IMG/VR virus record: IMGVR_UViG_3300047369_000318
Coordinates: 1 to 25,531 of that record
DNA: 25,531 bases
Strand: one strand, 5' to 3'
Origin: a virus
In this document: in pieces, positions 3 through 18,000 of the stretch
How the letters are laid out: each line of letters opens with the position of its first letter
Numbering within the stretch: the first letter of the stretch is position 1
Position numbers and translations under genes: made by a program
Notes under the pieces: model-generated
Seen by the model: only the letters and a program-made list of their open reading frames with translations
The model's database searches: none
Told to the model about the DNA's origin: nothing

Positions 3-137
3 TCTATTGGAAACTATGTAGAAGGCATAGTGGAAGGTGATATAGTTTATTACGATAGACATGCTGGACATGGAGTTCAGCATAAAGATAATTTTTACGG
101 TGTTATTCAACAGAAAGACGTCGTATTAATTGATTAA
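3..137 (+). CDS. GroES-like co-chaperonin, C-terminal part (5' end outside window)
   Basis: An open frame enters from the left edge and stops at TAA 135-137, giving 44 residues. The visible part contains VEGDIVYYDRHAGHGV, then a short polar turn and GVIQQKDVVLID. This matches the C-terminal half of GroES, where the pattern is GD-x-V-x-(Y/F)-x-x-x-AG followed by a beta hairpin and a final strand ending in a hydrophobic I/V-rich segment. GroES caps the GroEL folding chamber, and phage versions (T4 gp31 is the classic case) adapt host GroEL for capsid folding. The mobile loop that contacts GroEL lies upstream of the window and cannot be checked. The gene runs in the same direction as the late genes and is separated from the next by an 81-nt leader. 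The main uncertainty is the short length seen. Confidence 0.75.
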   Translation, partial: SIGNYVEGIVEGDIVYYDRHAGHGVQHKDNFYGVIQQKDVVLID

Positions 138-587: not shown

Positions 588-1028
588 GTGCGATTAACTA
601 GTCACGATTTACGTGAATTACAAATCCTAAAGTATTACAGGCTCACTAGAAAGTGGGCTTGTAAGACTTACGGGTTAACAGATGCCGATCTTGAACTTCT
701 AATATTTTTAGATTGTCAAAAACGGTTTACAAGACAAGAATTTATTGATGGTACTTACACCATGAGCTGGGATAAAACTCGGTGGGACAAACTAAGGAAG
801 TTAGGCTGGATTGAAGTGTGGAGACACAGGAATAGAACAACGATAAAGTACTCAGTATTTAAAACATCGTTTAAATGCCAGCAGTTAATAAGTAGAATAT
901 ACAGAATATTGCTTGGCGAAGAAGATATGCCAACATCTGAAAGAAGTGTATTTTACAATAACAAAACATATACTGATAAAGTCTTTAACAAGGCTATTGA
1001 TGATATGATAAAAGACAAAGATAGATAA
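588..1028 (+). CDS. Winged helix-turn-helix (MarR-like) DNA-binding protein
   Basis: This 146-aa protein has the layout of a MarR-type winged helix. A helix with GLTDADLELLIFLD (about residues 29-42) comes first. A recognition-helix region with SWDKTRWDKLRKLGW (60-74) follows. A basic beta wing, IEVWRHRNRTTIKYSV (75-90), and then a long helix with QLISRIYRILLGEEDMP complete the fold. The protein is basic, fitting DNA binding. Related proteins are common in marine Bacteroidota phages beside late genes, so a role in late transcription or in DNA packaging is plausible but unproven. The start is GTG at 588, 3 nt after the previous stop, so translation is probably coupled. Its stop overlaps the next start by 1 nt (TAATG). 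Confidence 0.65.
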   Translation: MRLTSHDLRELQILKYYRLTRKWACKTYGLTDADLELLIFLDCQKRFTRQEFIDGTYTMSWDKTRWDKLRKLGWIEVWRHRNRTTIKYSVFKTSFKCQQLISRIYRILLGEEDMPTSERSVFYNNKTYTDKVFNKAIDDMIKDKDR

Positions 1029-1462
1029 TGGGATTCAAACTAGGTAGAGGCACGAGAGATATTGCTGTTAACGGCAGAATAATCAAAAAGCATAGGTTTG
1101 GCAAAGAAGGTGGAGATCCACAGGCTTCAGTGCCAGGCACTCCTGTTATCAGAAAAGATTTAGGCGAAGGAATACTAGGCGAAGCTAATATGGATGGTTC
1201 TATATACATTAGCGACAAGTTAGTTCCTGGCAGCGCTGAAGAAAGACAAGTTATCAACCATGAAATGAGACACGCTACAGACATGAAAGTAGGTAAGCTT
1301 GCTTATGGTGATGATTATATAAAATACAACGGTGAAACGTTTATGCGTCAAACTATCAACGGAAAAGATATGATTAATGTTGATGGGCAATGGAAAGAAG
1401 CTGGTGACGGTGGTTTTCCTTGGGAGAACGATGCTAATAACGGAGAAGAAACAGCTATATGA
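1028..1462 (+). CDS. Small HExxH zinc metallopeptidase-like protein
   Basis: This 144-aa protein contains VINHEMRHATDMK, with the zinc-binding and catalytic motif H78-E79-x-x-H82. A candidate third ligand is E133 in FPWENDAN near the C terminus, a pattern seen in small glu-zincins; D85 is an alternative. A hydrophobic strand (SIYISDKLV) precedes the HExxH helix, as the edge strand does in zincins. There is no signal peptide or membrane segment, so it would act in the cytoplasm or virion, or reach the periplasm through the holin. It overlaps the previous gene by 1 nt and the holin gene by 4 nt (ATGA). The substrate is unknown: structural protein maturation, lysis, or toxin-like cleavage of a host protein are all possible. 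The motif is directly seen; the enzymatic role is inferred. Confidence 0.6.
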   Translation: MGFKLGRGTRDIAVNGRIIKKHRFGKEGGDPQASVPGTPVIRKDLGEGILGEANMDGSIYISDKLVPGSAEERQVINHEMRHATDMKVGKLAYGDDYIKYNGETFMRQTINGKDMINVDGQWKEAGDGGFPWENDANNGEETAI

Positions 1463-3381: not shown

Positions 3382-3583
3382 AATAACAATCGGTAAAGAC
3401 TACAAAATTGACGCCATGCACTATTCTGTTGGACAGGATGTGTATGGTGGTCATACTATTTGTGACATTATAGAGGAAGACGACAAGTACTCTATATACA
3501 TCAAGAAAAACAAAGATGTATTACCGTGGAAAGATTTTAATAAAAACATGGCTATATCTATTGAGTATAATTTAGAGTATTAG
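3362..3583 (+). CDS. Small conserved phage protein, function unknown
   Basis: The open frame extends upstream to 3320, but I prefer the ATG at 3362. It starts MSKLIRKITIGKDYK and overlaps the previous gene by only 20 nt, whereas the longer version adds an implausible hydrophobic leader read out of frame through the coiled-coil gene. The 73-aa product is probably beta-rich. It contains DYKIDAMHYSVGQDVYGG, then CDIIEEDDKYSIYIKK and a WKDFNK turn. I recall similar small proteins from marine phage contigs beside packaging genes, without a known function. Its TAG overlaps the GTG start of the next gene by 1 nt. Confidence 0.55.
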   Translation: MSKLIRKITIGKDYKIDAMHYSVGQDVYGGHTICDIIEEDDKYSIYIKKNKDVLPWKDFNKNMAISIEYNLEY

Positions 3584-4164
3584 TGAAGACACCATTTAAT
3601 TTTATCATTGAGCCTAAAGGCGGTAGATACAACAACACTACTAAAGTAGAGGGTAAAGATTTAATTTTAAACTCTGAAATACAAAACCACGAGTTTGTCA
3701 ATAGAGAAGCTGTAGTAAAAGCTGTTCCTACAGCATTTGATACTAAAATTAAAGTTGGTGATACTGTAATAGTACATCATAACGTGTTTAGAAGATGGTA
3801 CGACGCTAAAGGTAAAGAAAAAAACAGTAGAGCTTTTATTGACGAAACTACTTATGTGGTTAGTTTAGATCAAGTGTTTTTGTATAAGTCAAAAGATAAA
3901 TGGAAAGCTGTTGATGGGTTTTGCTTTGTAAAGCCTATTAAGCAAAGAGACAAGCTAGATCAAGAGATAGAGCAAAGCTGTGTTGGTATTGTAAAGTATA
4001 CAGACGGAGTTAATCGTATTGGAGAACTCGTAGGTTTCACGCCTTTCTCTACTTACGAGTTTATAATAGAAGGCCAAAAGCTTTATAGAGTCTATAATAA
4101 GTTTATTACAATTAAGTATGAATATCAAGGAGACGAAAAAGAGTATAATCCAAGCTGGGCATAG
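3583..4164 (+). CDS. Putative tandem GroES-like protein
   Basis: This 193-aa protein appears to contain two GroES-like barrels. In the first (about 4-101), FNFIIEPKGG resembles the first GroES strand, KDLILN the GGIILP-type loop, REAVVKAVP the GEVVAVGPG strand, and KVGDTVIVHHNVFRRW the VKVGDxVLFxKYAG strand. In the second (about 112-180), GFCFVKPIK restarts the pattern, VGIVKYTDG follows, and GELVGFTPFSTYEFIIEG plus KLYRVYNKFITIKY matches the C-terminal hairpin. Phage GroES proteins work with host GroEL in capsid folding. Between the VGD strand and its second half, the first unit carries a loop, DAKGKEKNSRAFIDETTY (74-91). The GTG start at 3583 overlaps the upstream stop by 1 nt; the gene overlaps the next by 47 nt. 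The GroES reading is pattern-based and needs structure prediction; an assembly protein of similar fold is the alternative. Confidence 0.5.
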   Translation: MKTPFNFIIEPKGGRYNNTTKVEGKDLILNSEIQNHEFVNREAVVKAVPTAFDTKIKVGDTVIVHHNVFRRWYDAKGKEKNSRAFIDETTYVVSLDQVFLYKSKDKWKAVDGFCFVKPIKQRDKLDQEIEQSCVGIVKYTDGVNRIGELVGFTPFSTYEFIIEGQKLYRVYNKFITIKYEYQGDEKEYNPSWA

Positions 4165-4393
4165 AGCAGTTGAAGAGCTTATTAAAGTAGCTAAAGAAGC
4201 TATCGTTGATAGTGGTGATGATATTACGGCTGATAGGCTTAAAAATGCTGCTGCTACTAAAAAGCTAGCTATATTTGATGCTTTTGAAATACTCAATCGT
4301 ATTCAAGAAGAAGAAAACTTGCTGGAAGGTAAAGAGCCAGAAAAGAAAGAAGAGAGGGTATTTAAAGGTTTTGCTGAAGGAAGATCTAAATGA
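4118..4393 (+). CDS. Candidate small terminase subunit
   Basis: This 91-aa protein is almost entirely helical and highly charged. AVEELIKVAKEAIV and AAATKKLAIFDAFEILNRI form the core, followed by a Lys/Glu-rich tail ending in GFAEGRSK. It lies immediately upstream of the large terminase with an ATGA overlap, the classic position of a small terminase, which recognises phage DNA and regulates the packaging motor. I see no clear helix-turn-helix, so the assignment rests on position, size and helical character. The start at 4118 lies 47 nt inside the preceding gene, in another frame; a later start would remove part of the first helix. Confidence 0.45.
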   Translation: MNIKETKKSIIQAGHRAVEELIKVAKEAIVDSGDDITADRLKNAAATKKLAIFDAFEILNRIQEEENLLEGKEPEKKEERVFKGFAEGRSK

Positions 4394-6606
4394 GTTACGA
4401 GCAAACGTTATATAAAATAGTTGAACCTATTAAGAAGACTACTTTAAGTAGACTTAATAAAGGTAAAAAATGGCATTACGGCTACAACAAAGAACATGAT
4501 ATTGTAGTTATATCTAAAACTGGCCAAATAGGTGATGTGTATGAAATACAAGGCTTGCGAGTAGCTTTACCTAAACAACCTAAAGAAGTACATAATAACG
4601 AGCATAGCAAGTGGAAGCAGTTAGATAAGCCAAAGCTGTTAGATAAGATAAAAACTATATTTGACTGGAAGGCATACCCGGAAGAGCAAAAAGAACAATG
4701 GTACGATTATATAGATGAAGAATTCAAAAGGCGTGACGAAGGTTTCTGGTTTCAGAATGCTAGTGTTCCAACTTATATTACAGGAACTCACTACATGTAC
4801 CTCCAATGGTCAAAAATAGATGTTGGTGCTCCAGACTTTCGTGAAGCTAATAGATTGTTTTTTATATTCTGGGAAGCTTGCAAAGCAGACAAGCGCTGCT
4901 ACGGCATGTGTTATCTTAAAAACAGACGTTCTGGGTTTTCTTTCATGAGCTCTGCTGAAACCGTTAACTTAGCTACAATATCGAGTGATAGTAGATATGG
5001 AATACTATCCAAGAGTGGTGGTGATGCTAAGAAGATGTTTACTGACAAGGTTGTGCCTATATCAATAAATTATCCTTTTTTCTTCAAACCTATTCAAGAT
5101 GGTATGGACAGACCAAAGTCTGAGCTAGCATATCGTGTGCCAGCGAGTAAGTTTACTCGTAAAAAAATAGAGGTTAACGAAAAGCTAGAGGAGATAAAAG
5201 GTCTTGACACAACGATTGATTGGAAGAACACAGGCGACAACAGTTATGATGGTGAAAAATTATCACTGTTAGTTCATGATGAAAGTGGCAAGTGGGAGAG
5301 GCCCGATAACATACTTAACAACTGGCGAGTTACAAAAACTTGTCTTAGACTAGGTAGTAGAATTATCGGCAAGTGCATGATGGGGTCAACGTCTAACGCA
5401 TTAGATAAAGGTGGTGATAACTTCAAGAGATTGTATAATGATAGTGATGTAACTCGAAGAAATAAAAATGGGCAAACAAAATCTGGTTTATATGCTTTGT
5501 TTATTCCAATGGAGTGGAACTTTGAAGGATTTATTGACGAATATGGACGACCTGTCTTCACTACTCCAGGACGAGATGTTCATGGACCAGACGGTGAATT
5601 AATAGACGTAGGCGTTATAGATAATTGGAACAACGAGGTAGAAGGCTTAAAAGAGGATCAAGATGCATTAAACGAATTTTATCGTCAGTTTCCAAGAACT
5701 GAAGAGCATGCGTTTAGAGATGAAACAAAAAACAGTATATTTAATTTAGTTAAAATATACGAGCAAATAGATTATAATGAAGGAATAGGAAATAGCGCTG
5801 TTTACAACACTGGTAATTTTCAGTGGGTAAGTGGAGTTAAGGACACAGCTGTAGTTTTTAATCCTGACCCAAAAGGAAGGTTTAACATAAGTTGGACACC
5901 TCAACCTAGACTTCAAAACAATGTAATAATAAAAAATGGTGTTAAGTACCCTGGTAACGAGCATATGGGCGCCTTTGGCTGCGATAGTTATGATATTAGT
6001 GGTACTGTTGATGGTAGAGGATCCAACGGATCTCTTCATGGACTAACAAAGTTTAGTATGGAAGACGCTCCGCCAAACCATTTCTTTTTAGAATATATTG
6101 CTAGACCACAAACCGCAGAAATATTTTTTGAAGATATACTAATGGCTTGCATATTTTACGGTATGCCATTGTTAGCAGAAAATAACAAGCCAAGACTACT
6201 TTACTACTTTAAGCGAAGAGGCTATAGAGGTTTTAGTATGAATAGACCAGATAAAGTTTGGAACAAGCTAAGTACAGCTGAAAAAGAAATAGGTGGTATA
6301 CCTAACTCTAGTGAAGATATAAAGCAAGCTCACGCTGCAGCTATAGAAATGTATATCAATGATCACGTAGGTCATTTAGACGAAGGAGTATACGGTAATG
6401 TGTATTTCAATAGAACTTTAAATGATTGGGCTAAGTTTGATATAAACAAAAGAACTAAGTTTGATGCCGCTATAAGCTCTGGTTTAGCTATAATGGCTTG
6501 CAATCGTCACCTTTACAGACCACACGCGGATATTAAAAGACCGCAAGTAAACATAAATATATCTAAATATTCTAACCAAGGTGGAATATCAAAAATAATA
6601 AAATAA
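4390..6606 (+). CDS. terL: Terminase large subunit
   Basis: This 738-aa packaging motor has both expected domains. ATPase: a deviant Walker A, LKNRRSGFSF (176-185), aligns with the lambda gpA type KxxRxGxS, with K177 as the likely phosphate-contacting lysine. Walker B is LSLLVHDES (291-299, D297-E298), and the coupling motif is MMGSTSN (330-336). A linker with YRQFPRTEEHAF follows. Nuclease (RNase H-like): FGCDSYD (D532), LLAENNK (E597) and KFDAAISSGLAIMA (D692) supply the usual three acids. It cuts concatemers and pumps DNA through the portal. It starts with an ATGA overlap on the candidate small terminase and is followed after 4 nt by the portal gene. Length and motif style match terminases of crAss-like and Cellulophaga phages. 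Confidence 0.93.
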   Translation: MSYEQTLYKIVEPIKKTTLSRLNKGKKWHYGYNKEHDIVVISKTGQIGDVYEIQGLRVALPKQPKEVHNNEHSKWKQLDKPKLLDKIKTIFDWKAYPEEQKEQWYDYIDEEFKRRDEGFWFQNASVPTYITGTHYMYLQWSKIDVGAPDFREANRLFFIFWEACKADKRCYGMCYLKNRRSGFSFMSSAETVNLATISSDSRYGILSKSGGDAKKMFTDKVVPISINYPFFFKPIQDGMDRPKSELAYRVPASKFTRKKIEVNEKLEEIKGLDTTIDWKNTGDNSYDGEKLSLLVHDESGKWERPDNILNNWRVTKTCLRLGSRIIGKCMMGSTSNALDKGGDNFKRLYNDSDVTRRNKNGQTKSGLYALFIPMEWNFEGFIDEYGRPVFTTPGRDVHGPDGELIDVGVIDNWNNEVEGLKEDQDALNEFYRQFPRTEEHAFRDETKNSIFNLVKIYEQIDYNEGIGNSAVYNTGNFQWVSGVKDTAVVFNPDPKGRFNISWTPQPRLQNNVIIKNGVKYPGNEHMGAFGCDSYDISGTVDGRGSNGSLHGLTKFSMEDAPPNHFFLEYIARPQTAEIFFEDILMACIFYGMPLLAENNKPRLLYYFKRRGYRGFSMNRPDKVWNKLSTAEKEIGGIPNSSEDIKQAHAAAIEMYINDHVGHLDEGVYGNVYFNRTLNDWAKFDINKRTKFDAAISSGLAIMACNRHLYRPHADIKRPQVNINISKYSNQGGISKIIK

Positions 6607-10271: not shown

Positions 10272-11738
10272 ATGGCAATTACACCCGGTGATAATTTGAA
10301 TAGCGTTCCTGCTTCACGAAAGCAAACGTTATCTACAAATTATTTAGACCTATCATCTGGCGATAACGCTGGTTGGGGTCAACAATACGTTCCAGATTTA
10401 ATGGAAAAAGAGGCTGAAGTTTTCGGCCCAAGAACAATTTCAGGCTTTCTAGCTAAAATAGGAGCTGAAGAGGCTATGACAGCTGATCAAGTTGTATGGT
10501 CTGAGCAAGGACGTTTGCACTTGTCTTACAAAGGTAAGTTAACAAATGACAACACTTTCTTAGTTCAAGCTGACATTGATGAAGCTAATTACACTCAAGC
10601 TGGTCTTGATACTGCTCACGGCGTTAGATTAAACGACACTGTTGTTGTTTCTAATGCTAATGGCGTATTCAAAGCTATGGTTACAGGCATCGCTACCAAC
10701 GACGTTTTAACACTATCTGCTTATGACGGCGTTGATATTGATCAGCTTAACACAGACAAGACTACTACTATTTTAGTCTATGGTTCTGAGTACGGAAAAG
10801 CTAGACGTTACCAAGCTGACAACGACGCTGCAAACGACGTTGATTCAAGAGGCGCTAACGAGCCACAGTTTCAAACTTTTACTAACAAGCCTATCATCAT
10901 GAAGGACTACTACGAGGTGTCTGGATCAGATGCGTCTCGTATCGGTTGGGTAGAAATTTCTACAGAAGCTGGACAGGGCGGTTACTTGTGGTACTTAAAA
11001 GCTGAGTCTGATACTCGTGCTCGTTTTAACGACTATGTTGAAATGTCTATGTTAGAGTCTGTTAAAGGCTCTGGTACTAACGGCGTTGATGACTACTTAG
11101 GTCATGCTAACGTAGGTACTCAAGGTTTATTCGATGCTATCGAAGATAGAGGTAACGTAACTTCAGGTATTACTGGTGTTAACGCTGCTACTGACTTAGC
11201 TGAATTTGACGCTATCTTAGCTGAATTTGACAAGCAAGGTGCTATTGAAGAAAACATGATGTTTGTTAACCGTGCTACTAGTTTAGCTATTGACGACATG
11301 TTAGCTTCTATGAACTCTTACGGTGCTGGTGGTACTTCTTACGGAGTATTCGACAACTCTGAGGATATGGCGTTGAACTTAGGTTTCTCTGGATTTAGAA
11401 GAGGTTCTTACGACTTCTATAAGTCTGACATGCGTTACTTAAACGATAAAGCTACACGTGGCGGTATCAATGATGCTGCAGGTTCTGGCGAAATTCGTGG
11501 GGTTATGATTCCTGCTGGTTCTTCATCTGTATATGATCAAACTGTTGGTGCTTCTATCAAGCGTCCGTTCTTACACGTACGTTACAGAGCTTCACAAACT
11601 GATGATCGTAGAATGAAGACTTGGACTACTGGTTCGGTTGGAGCTGCTACATCTGCTTTAGATGCAATGCAACTACACTTCTTAACTGAAAGATGTTTAG
11701 TTACTCAAGGTGCTAACAACTTCATGTTATTGAAGTAA
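10272..11738 (+). CDS. Major capsid protein
   Basis: This 488-aa protein lies after portal and scaffold and has the features of a major head protein. It has a long N-arm and E-loop-like beta region (GVRLNDTVVVSNANGVFKAM, about 118-137). A conserved motif, YYEVSGSDASRIGWVEIS (about 212-229), follows, and then mixed alpha/beta text ending in FLTERCLVTQGANNFMLL. The size and the VSGSDAS motif match capsid proteins of crAss-like and marine Bacteroidota phages, which have the HK97 fold. Codon use differs from its neighbours: arginine is often CGT (AGA dominates elsewhere), and GCT, GGT, AAC and GAC are frequent, as expected for the most expressed gene. The leader ends ATTTATTATG. A strong intrinsic terminator follows the stop. 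Confidence 0.85.
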   Translation: MAITPGDNLNSVPASRKQTLSTNYLDLSSGDNAGWGQQYVPDLMEKEAEVFGPRTISGFLAKIGAEEAMTADQVVWSEQGRLHLSYKGKLTNDNTFLVQADIDEANYTQAGLDTAHGVRLNDTVVVSNANGVFKAMVTGIATNDVLTLSAYDGVDIDQLNTDKTTTILVYGSEYGKARRYQADNDAANDVDSRGANEPQFQTFTNKPIIMKDYYEVSGSDASRIGWVEISTEAGQGGYLWYLKAESDTRARFNDYVEMSMLESVKGSGTNGVDDYLGHANVGTQGLFDAIEDRGNVTSGITGVNAATDLAEFDAILAEFDKQGAIEENMMFVNRATSLAIDDMLASMNSYGAGGTSYGVFDNSEDMALNLGFSGFRRGSYDFYKSDMRYLNDKATRGGINDAAGSGEIRGVMIPAGSSSVYDQTVGASIKRPFLHVRYRASQTDDRRMKTWTTGSVGAATSALDAMQLHFLTERCLVTQGANNFMLLK

Positions 11739-15019: not shown

Positions 15020-18000
15020 ATGCCAGAGATTAAAAATACTTTTGTTCGAGGTAAAATGAATAAAGACCTTGACGAAAGGTTAATACCTAATGGAGAGTAT
15101 AGAGAAGCGTTAAACGTAGAGATTTCTACTTCAGAAGATTCTAACGTTGGAACTGTTCAAAATATTATTGGCAACAAAAGAATTGATAAGCTTTTTAATG
15201 GTAACTTCGCTATTAGCTCTAACGACTTTACATGTATAGGGTCTATTGCTGATGAAAAAGAAAATAAACTTTATTGGTTTATAACATCTGTAGACAAAGA
15301 TATAATATTAGAGTGGGACGAAGAAAATCAATATTCATCTTTAGTTTTTGTAGATACTAAGAAAAAAGTTAAAGGTGCTACTTTAAAATTTCCTTCTAAA
15401 ACTATAACAGGTATAAATATAGTTGATGAGTTTTTAATGTGGACAGACGGCGTTAATGAGCCAAAAAAAATAAATATAAAAAACTGCAAGTTAGGAACAA
15501 CTTCAGTAAATCAACACACTTTACTTTACGTTAATGGTACTTCTGCTGGAGATATTGAAGAGGAGCATATAACTGTAATTAAAAAAAGACCATCTACTGC
15601 TCCTTTTATAAAAATTAATCACACTGATTCAGTAGAAGAAAAAAGTTTATTTGAAAACGTATTTCCAAGATTTACCTACAGGTACAAGTATGCTGACGGT
15701 GAATACTCGGCTTTTGGTCCTTTTACTGCGCCTATTATTTCTGCAAAATACTCTAAAGCTTATAATTCTTCTAATTTCTACGGTATAAAAGAAGGTTATA
15801 ACACGGCGATGTATAACACTATAAAGTCTCTTGAAATCATGGACTTCGTTCCTCATGACATACCTAAAGATGTCGTTCAAGTTGACATACTATATAAGCA
15901 AGATGATTCTAACGTTGTATATTCTATAGCCAAAATAAAAAATACAGATCCAGAGTTTAGCGCTAAAGGATCAGGACTAGGTGTTCAGCTACTTCAGCCT
16001 ATTGATAATATAGATAGGCACAGAAATCTAGGTAAGTATGTTTTAAATACAGAAAACATTTACGCTGCAGTTCCAGAAAACCAGTTGTTAAGAGTATATG
16101 ATAATGTTCCAAGGAAAGCTATAGCTCAAGAAATAGTTGGCAACAGGTTAGTCTATGCTAATTACACTCAAGGTTACGATATTGATCAAGACGTTAAGGT
16201 TTATGCTGGCTACGAAAAAAGAAACGTTAAAGAATCTTTTGAGACAGGAGGAATACAATCTGTTAAGTCTCAGAGAGACTATCAAGTTGGCGTAGTTTTT
16301 GGAGATGAGTATGGAAGAGAAACACCTGTAATCACGTCATCAGAAGGTTCTATTAAAATTCCTTTTACTGACGACGATATAGTAAACGGTGTGGTTTCAA
16401 CTAAAGCTGTAAATATAAAAGCTAAAATGTCAAGCTACGCTCCAGATTGGGCTAGCTACTTTAAGTTTTACGTTAAAGAAACTTCAGGTGAATATTACAA
16501 CGCTTTAATGACTGCCGCGTTTATACCTGGCTCTGACACTGAGTTTGACAACAAAGAAGAACACCTGTGGCTAGCGTTTAACTCGTCTGACATAAACAAA
16601 ATACAAGAAGACTCTTACTTAGTATTAAAAAGAACAATTGGCGCAAATGGTGGTACTATAAACTACGAGAATAAATACAAAGTAATAGATGTTAAAGCAG
16701 AAGCTCCAGAGTCTATAGCTTACAATTACTTTGACTTATGTAGCCAATTAAACGATAACCTTCAGCTTAATGATGGTGGCACAGATGGTTCTATAATGCA
16801 AGAACATCAATTTAGGATTGATCAAACCGTAGACAAAATAAAAATAGATGTAGATTCTTACTTAGCGCTAGGGCACTCTCCTATACCATCTTCTGATGGT
16901 GAAAACGCTTCTACAGAAACATCTAACAATATATACATATCTTGGAAACTTGAAGACGATAACGATGCGACTTTTACTCACTCTAAAAAGTATAAGGTAA
17001 GTAGCGTTAGCACTGTATCTGGAGCTTATGTTTTAGGCTTAGCCAACAAGATAACACCTGGCGACGCTAAGCTTGCCTCCGGAGCCACTAATAAAGCTAT
17101 AAATACAGCTACAGGTTCTTTAGATGAAAATCTAACGTTTCTAGTAGAGCGTAAAGATAAAAGAGAAGGAGAAGATTTTTCTGGTAAGTTTTTTGTTAAA
17201 ATAAAAATAGACGAGTTAATACTTCAAGCTTTAGTTAATAAGCAAGTTGAAGTTCATAATAATAAGTTTATTTCTTCTTCAGCAAACGTGTTGTGGCTTG
17301 CTTCAATTCAAGATTCTTCTAACGAGCTTGATGGAGTTTTAAACACTAATCCTTACGCAAATACTCCAGACATTACTGTTCAAGAACTTATAGATGCAGC
17401 AGCTGATGAGCTAGCAGACGCCTCAAGTCATTGGTCAGATATTTTAGGTGAAACAGGACCTACGTTTTTTATAGACAACATGTATTTGACGGACTCTAAC
17501 CCTTCCGATTCTTATTACGCTAAAGAAGCAGGTCAAGGTTGGAGAGGTAATCCCGTGTCATATCCAAAAGCGGTTTGGAACAACACTACGGATATACCTT
17601 GGTCTCCAGACGTTATTAGTACAGAGCAACAGTATGACGAAGATAATTTTTCTGCTAGCAACGTAATGAATGGTCTGCCTGGAATAGTTACCACTAACAC
17701 AAGCTACATAGAAGGAGGATCTAAACAGTGGAAACAAGATAGCGTATTTGACGTTAGCTTTGAAGATTCTTATGGAGAAGAAACAGGTAAAGTCTTTATG
17801 CATATTTCTTTTTTAGCTCCTGGAAAAAACTTGCACTCTTCAAACTGGACAGATAATAGTGGGCTAGCAACTTCTACAGCCACTGGACTTCAAAGTCTTG
17901 CTAAAGACATGCAGGGAATATGGGGAGGAGGAGTTTTTATAAAAGAAGGGGTTTATGTAGAGTTTGAAGGTAGTTACGATCAAACAGACTCTGCTATTGG

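Follow-up and report, generated by a model that had tools for sequence, protein, structure and literature searches.

A phage groES gene end and a separate tandem co-chaperonin-like protein in a podovirus-like phage lineage

Main finding

The reading frame at the left edge of the window (the whole stretch of DNA that was analysed, a complete IMG/VR record of 25,531 bp) encodes the C-terminal end of a real GroES/Cpn10. The best explanation of the data as a whole, to which we give a probability of roughly 0.8, is that this frame is the groES end of a phage groEL-groES operon and that a 193-residue protein encoded downstream is a second lid or lid component. Taken alone, the left-edge gene is an ordinary phage GroES. 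The interesting part is the conserved three-gene set, which combines a groEL-groES pair with a separate tandem lid. The phage is podovirus-like and probably infects Bacteroidota, and phages of this lineage appear to bring their own protein-folding machine. The following features of the window are referred to below.

3..137, + strand: 3' end of groES (Cpn10), the last 44 residues and the stop; the start and groEL lie outside the window
3583..4164, + strand: 193-residue tandem co-chaperonin-like protein, PHROG 13932, GTG start
Within the 193-residue protein, from profiles and a predicted model: domain 1, spanning roughly residues 1-104, which carries a GroEL-binding-type loop; domain 2, spanning roughly residues 105-181, which has no such loop
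4118..4393, + strand: 91-residue protein between the tandem lid and the terminase, a conserved neighbour with no PHROG match
4390..6606, + strand: terminase large subunit, PHROG 6681, a fixed neighbour of the tandem lid
10272..11738, + strand: 488-residue virion structural protein, PHROG 13704 (E 6.2e-95), a candidate capsid protein and candidate client

The left-edge gene fragment

The frame at window positions 3-137 (+) holds 44 residues followed by a stop and is open leftward at the window edge. By itself the match of this fragment to GroES is weak. Residues 8-41 align with positions 57-90 of 93 in the Pfam Cpn10 profile (PF00166) at 16 bits (E=0.012), which is below the curated cut-off of 21.1 bits, and PHROG 3188, "co-chaperonin GroES," is matched with E=0.0011. 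The remainder of the gene was sought with the full GroES of a relative, locus L002. Residues 42-85 of that protein match window positions 3-134, and the first 41 residues are absent from the window. The one other match is weak (E 0.044) and places L002 GroES residues 1-18 on the start of the second half of the window's own 193-residue protein. Since the record is complete, its two ends do not overlap and GroES residues 1-41 were not found in it, the missing part of this window's groES is unreadable. A circular record with the groES start at its other end was ruled out on the same grounds. GroEL, searched for over the whole 25,531-bp record, is also absent.

The comparison with L002 is close. 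All 44 residues and 130 of 135 bases are identical over positions 3-137, and the five changes in the groES part are all synonymous, with no non-synonymous change. The genes that follow groES are homologous and in the same order in the window and in L002.

Full-length GroES in relatives

Relatives were gathered with the window's 193-residue protein as the query, and the best 80 of at least 599 confirmed relatives were kept. A GroES gene is present in 29 of these best 80 of at least 599 loci, between 2.6 and 6.6 kb upstream of the gene for the 193-residue protein; in one further locus (L024) the last 16 GroES residues are found at the contig edge. The L002 GroES is an 85-residue protein (L002:1910-2167) that contains the same 44 residues as the window. 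It matches Pfam Cpn10 at 39.4 bits (E=6.3e-10, profile positions 3-90 of 93), above the cut-off, and PHROG 3188 with E=2.1e-14. The NCBIfam GroES equivalog cut-offs are missed by a wide margin (35.5 against 120 bits). The sequence-only reading had taken the 44 residues for the C-terminal half of a second, separate GroES-type co-chaperonin. The full-length Cpn10 match of the L002 protein bears this out, and the gene is indeed separate, lying 3.4 kb from the gene for the 193-residue protein. Absence of a GroES profile match in the full protein, which would have spoken against that reading, was not what was found.

A full-length frame and a mobile loop had also been proposed as checks, and both are present in the full-length relatives. 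The L002 GroES contains the segment KKVGGLILT, with a hydrophobic tripeptide after Gly-Gly; it was placed by the GroES mobile-loop motif, and it lies outside the window. In an alignment of 21 GroES sequences, four of them from named phages, a segment like KKVGGLILTDE is common at this place to the 17 closest sequences and is loose in the four named-phage proteins. An AlphaFold2 model from 17 sequences (pLDDT 73.7) supports a Cpn10 fold for the full-length relative of the left-edge gene. Cpn10/GroES chains were at the top of the Foldseek results (best E 1.6e-4), the VIA comparison gave 1wnr_C (Z 9.1, rmsd 3.4, 70 residues aligned), and the only listed stretch with pLDDT below 50, residues 19-32, is the mobile loop. 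When the phage GroES is aligned with Thermus Cpn10, one gap of 2 residues and one of 7 fall within the roof-loop segment.

A chance match of the 44 residues, or a decayed gene remnant, would be in keeping with a fragment that alone falls below the Pfam cut-off. Against it stand the intact full-length homologues, the five synonymous and zero non-synonymous changes from L002, and a low pN/pS among relatives (median 0.19 and maximum 0.40 over 91 pairs of 14 full-length genes). This explanation was rejected and its probability is negligible. Judging from these codon comparisons, groES is under purifying selection.

The groEL gene upstream of groES

In L002 a groEL gene for a 522-residue protein (355-1923) lies on the same strand as groES, which begins at 1910, so that the two genes share 14 nt. 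With starts as called, 24 of 29 cases show this 14-nt overlap; in the remaining five, groES was called from a start further upstream. Both genes occur in all 23 loci that have at least 6 kb to the left of the 193-residue protein gene, and in 27 of the 28 with at least 5 kb (both counts among the best 80 of at least 599). The exception, L075, has a left flank of 5.4 kb without groES or groEL; the spacing from groES to the 193-residue protein gene elsewhere reaches 6.6 kb. Of 26 records compared with the Pfam Cpn60 profile, 19 score above its cut-off, and each of the seven records without GroEL reaches its contig end within 4.6 kb to the left of the 193-residue protein gene.

These proteins were assigned to group I GroEL (PF00118) from a full-length profile match and conserved ATP-site aspartates, both of which were found. 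For example, the L002 record matches PF00118 at 170.4 bits (cut-off 34.3) over positions 1-488 of 490. The best solved-structure match of the L002 GroEL is a reconstructed Fibrobacteres-Chlorobi-Bacteroidetes chaperonin (395 bits), followed by bacterial GroELs, and the phage protein matches E. coli GroEL at 343 bits. Residue comparisons use the E. coli GroEL numbering of the ATP site (52, 87, 398) and of the apical groove, with positions mapped through motifs. In 44 aligned phage GroELs, many of which are close relatives of one another, the three ATP-site aspartates are invariant. The apical groove is altered, with Y199 replaced by L in 24 sequences, Y203 by H in 28, L234 by Q in 29 and L259 by K in 29, and F204 is kept in all 44. 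The GGM tail is found in none of the 38 uncut phage GroELs. At the level of sequence, a kept ATP site together with an altered groove suggests a working, specialised GroEL-GroES pair.

Since groEL lies directly upstream in the relatives, the window gene very probably supplies the GroES of a groEL-groES operon carried by the phage, with its groEL outside the window and read from those relatives. The proposed search for a phage GroEL elsewhere in the genome thus had a divided outcome: there is none in the window, but one stands directly upstream of groES in relatives. As a phage groEL adjoins groES in those relatives, there are simpler readings than the further suggestion that the two caps act on different host GroELs. 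The two caps may, as was also suggested, serve different clients.

A lid of the T4 gp31 type, acting on the host GroEL in a phage that has no GroEL of its own, must also be weighed. The lack of groEL from the window agrees with it, as do the lids without a detected GroEL in Cellulophaga phage phi18:3 and record G033 (see below), and roof loops appear to be missing from the window-lineage GroES, as in gp31. However, L002, which is identical to the window at 130 of 135 bases in this region, has a groEL overlapping groES, and both genes are carried by every one of the 23 loci with enough left flank among the best 80 of at least 599. For the class of the left-edge gene, then, groEL is absent from the window and present in L002 and other relatives, and a gp31-type lid is very unlikely.

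The tandem co-chaperonin-like protein

The window's 193-residue protein matches PHROG 13932, "co-chaperonin GroES," with E 2e-19. No Pfam family scores above its cut-off for this protein, Pfam Cpn10 gives no match to it, and only 9 of its 78 homologues in the alignment used for modelling match Pfam Cpn10 at E of 0.1 or below. The AlphaFold2 model from the same 78 sequences has a pLDDT of 76.2 and a pTM of 0.68. In Foldseek the top PDB match, and the only one below 0.001, is 7ekq_R (E 8.3e-5, 203 columns, 14% identity), which is named as the Cpn20 co-chaperonin subunit of the Chlamydomonas chloroplast. The first rank in VIA is 7ekq_Q, the other long chain of the same entry (Z 10.1, rmsd 4.5, 155 residues aligned, model residues 1-179). 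Taken separately, model stretches 1-104 and 105-181 each align with single Cpn10s, with Z scores around 8-9. Next, at Z of 6 or below, come medium-chain dehydrogenases, a family with a GroES-like domain; all of these structure matches are at low sequence identity.

Profiles point the same way. The single-domain GroES family, PHROG 3188, gives a match to the first half of the elemoF protein (residues 14-64, E 3e-4) and to the second half of the tandem protein in phi38:1, phi18:3 and locus L140. In these last three the second half also matches Pfam Cpn10 above the cut-off, unlike in the window's protein. When each half of the 193-residue protein was compared with the phage GroES alignment, the probabilities were 60 and 57 (E about 1e-4), and 12 other window genes gave 0.76 or less. 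A direct internal repeat was rejected, as the N-terminal half against the C-terminal half gave a probability of 1.5 and no match; the tandem claim therefore rests on the separate Cpn10 matches of each half and on the model. Domain 1 carries a hydrophobic loop motif, L/F27 in 74 and I/V28 in 77 of 78 homologues, which sits at the GroES loop place in the profile alignment. No such motif was seen in domain 2 of the 78 aligned homologues.

From predicted structure and profiles, the 193-residue protein is two Cpn10 domains in tandem, and its most likely role is that of a second, specialised lid or lid component. We call it Cpn20-like and not Cpn20, as it is a phage gene and not a plastid one. The idea of two GroES-type proteins thus stands in that both are Cpn10-like, but they are unequal, one being a conventional Cpn10 and the other a tandem two-domain protein.

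Two observations concern the spread of the family. In loci L066 (1235-1585) and L067 (4003-4353) the homologue frame stops after 116 residues while tblastn matches all 193, which may reflect an interrupted gene or an error in sequencing. A single scan of contigs from bacterial and archaeal genomes placed the family in 16 MAG contigs (L258-L273), labelled as various bacteria and one archaeon; these are probably phage contigs binned with their hosts.

The three-gene set across phages

All three components, GroEL, a separate Cpn10 and a homologue of the 193-residue protein, are present in each of the phages MW202828, elemoF 6-3D, phi38:1 and Panino. Among 17 long IMG/VR records, chosen for carrying that homologue, a separate Cpn10 was found in all 17 and GroEL in 16. 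Records G027, G031 and G032 are apparently copies of isolates (elemoE 6-9C, phi38:1 and Calle_1) and so are not independent of the named phages. The 72.8-kb record G033, a contig of L140, has a Cpn10 and the tandem protein (27433-27675 and 16666-16914), the second half of the latter matching Cpn10 above the cut-off, and no GroEL match was found in it. The record of Cellulophaga phage phi18:3 (NC_021794.1) likewise has a Cpn10 in an 85-residue frame (31117-31338) and a tandem-type protein of 200 residues (PHROG 13932, L274 3047-3649), and GroEL was not detected in it. G033 and phi18:3 indicate that a phage GroEL is not always required where lids occur, and phi18:3 offers a natural example in which the lids would have to work with the GroEL of the host. 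Across the small number of genomes examined, the two lids are retained with more consistency than GroEL is. Tenacibaculum phage Gundel, whose terminase is more distantly related, gave no Cpn10 or GroEL match and has no annotated homologue of the 193-residue protein beside its terminase.

Several records annotate the tandem gene, either as "co-chaperonin GroES" or as "chaperonin cpn10." In Panino the only GroES-named gene seen is the tandem one beside the terminase, so the single-domain Cpn10 is unannotated there. Panino (PP540027.1) CDS0109 (68128-68394), annotated as hypothetical and close to groEL, is a Cpn10 at 34.8 bits, above the cut-off. The Panino homologue used as a query found no relatives.

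The position of the tandem gene raises another explanation, in which the 193-residue protein is not a lid and a Cpn10 fold has been re-used for packaging or head assembly. The gene for the homologue is followed by the terminase gene, either at once or after one other gene, in MW202828, elemoF 6-3D, phi38:1 and Panino, and the same holds for phi18:3; the weak sequence match of the window's own protein and the lack of a loop motif in domain 2 also fit. On the other hand, domain 1 has its conserved hydrophobic motif at the GroES loop place, and the tandem protein is accompanied by a Cpn10 in all 17 long records. We regard this re-use as unlikely and retain a second lid or lid component as the preferred role.

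How the two lids relate is a separate matter. They may form one mixed cap, as in chloroplasts, and not two alternative caps. A separate Cpn10 in 17 of 17 long tandem-bearing records and in phi18:3 favours this, as does the precedent in passages of two papers on the chloroplast system (PMC5780408, PMC5904260). The groES and tandem genes are not adjacent, however, domain 2 is without a loop motif, and the records were picked for the tandem protein, so that the co-occurrence is partly shared ancestry. Given the chloroplast precedent, and given that the lids occur as a pair even where GroEL was not detected, a mixed lid deserves consideration; by this analogy, co-assembly of a single-domain GroES and the tandem protein into a chloroplast-style two-component lid is a tentative possibility.

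Neighbouring genes

The 91-residue protein next to the tandem lid has homologues in 163 loci of the set examined and is possibly a small terminase, which is a guess. No separate gene for it is present in elemoF, phi38:1 or Panino, in which the terminase is about 130 residues longer; its fusion to the longer elemo terminase was considered and rejected for want of a convincing match. Between groES and the tandem gene, window positions 1028-1462 encode a 144-residue protein that contains HEMRH, a motif of the HExxH type, and matches Peptidase_M90 weakly (E 0.06, under the cut-off); by its sequence it is a possible zinc peptidase. Positions 1459-1878 encode a holin-like membrane protein (PHROG 3427, E 0.001; PHROG 1544, E 0.00037).

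Proposed function

We infer that the GroES ring would cap the phage's own GroEL, with hydrophobic loop residues inserting into the apical groove; the altered groove suggests a matched phage GroEL-GroES pair. The ATP-driven cycle would then serve to fold phage proteins that are large and made late, the capsid protein among them. The 488-residue virion structural protein is the preferred candidate client by analogy, as its size is similar to that of T4 gp23. The tandem lid would act on the phage GroEL where there is one, and on the host GroEL in relatives without one. If a mixed cap is formed, it would reshape or enlarge the chamber of the phage GroEL (or of the host GroEL, for example in phi18:3) for large structural proteins.

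The lid pair with and without a detected GroEL, the latter in phi18:3 and G033, offers natural comparisons for the role of the second lid. Isolates with cultured hosts are on record, namely phi38:1 and phi18:3 on Cellulophaga baltica and the elemo phages on Flavobacterium, so the function of the second lid is directly testable.

Comparison with known systems

Earlier publications already report both GroEL and GroES from phages of this lineage. Phages with both proteins are described in a portion of PMC7185714, citing Marine et al. 2017. Excerpts of other papers report homologues of GroEL from 36 environmental genomes belonging to the phi38:1 group (PMC5332604), GroEL and GroES homologues in Panino (PMC11590407), "chaperonin cpn10" among the Pervagoviridae core proteins (PMC8776804), and methylated phi38:1 GroEL peptides in infected cells and free-virion samples (PMC13288928). 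The pair of a single-domain and a tandem lid is not described in the literature searched; in open-access literature no paper was found that describes a tandem Cpn10 protein or a second GroES in phages.

The named phages are the nearest parallel. Flavobacterium phage vB_FspP_elemoF_6-3D has GroEL as gp43, GroES as gp44 and a "co-chaperonin GroES" as gp30. In phi38:1 the Cpn10 is gp007 and the tandem protein gp089. Like the window lineage, elemoF 6-3D, phi38:1, Panino and MW202828 combine GroEL, a separate Cpn10 and a PHROG 13932 protein of about 180-195 residues. However, their groES products are 28-36% identical to that of L002, and strands and gene order differ; in phi38:1, for example, groES comes before groEL with one gene between, unlike the order in L002.

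T4 gp31 resembles the window-lineage GroES as a phage-encoded GroES-type lid that appears to be without roof loops. The part of PMC6318259 on gp31 describes it as lacking roof loops and as needed for the 56-kDa capsid protein gp23. Unlike the window relatives, which have their own groEL adjoining groES, gp31 works with the host GroEL. The gp146 chaperonin of phage EL is a phage-encoded GroEL homologue, as is the GroEL of the window relatives; in a section of PMC7185714 it is 22% identical to GroEL and is grouped with phages that have a GroEL-like protein only, whereas the GroEL considered here has a GroES.

The last parallel is with the chloroplast. Passages of PMC5780408 describe mixed rings of single-domain and tandem lids and call the tandem Cpn20 type chloroplast-specific, and passages of PMC5904260 describe a Chlamydomonas Cpn10 that assists GroEL only together with Cpn20. 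If the two phage lids do co-assemble into a mixed cap, the tandem-lid design would extend to tailed phages that infect Bacteroidota. The occurrence of a tandem Cpn10 beyond plastids is also relevant to the way in which a sevenfold ring is capped by lid domains of even number. Chloroplast Cpn20 (7ekq chain R) is like the 193-residue protein in having two Cpn10-like domains beside a single-domain Cpn10; the 193-residue protein differs in its phage origin, in its 14% identity and in carrying the loop motif in domain 1 only.
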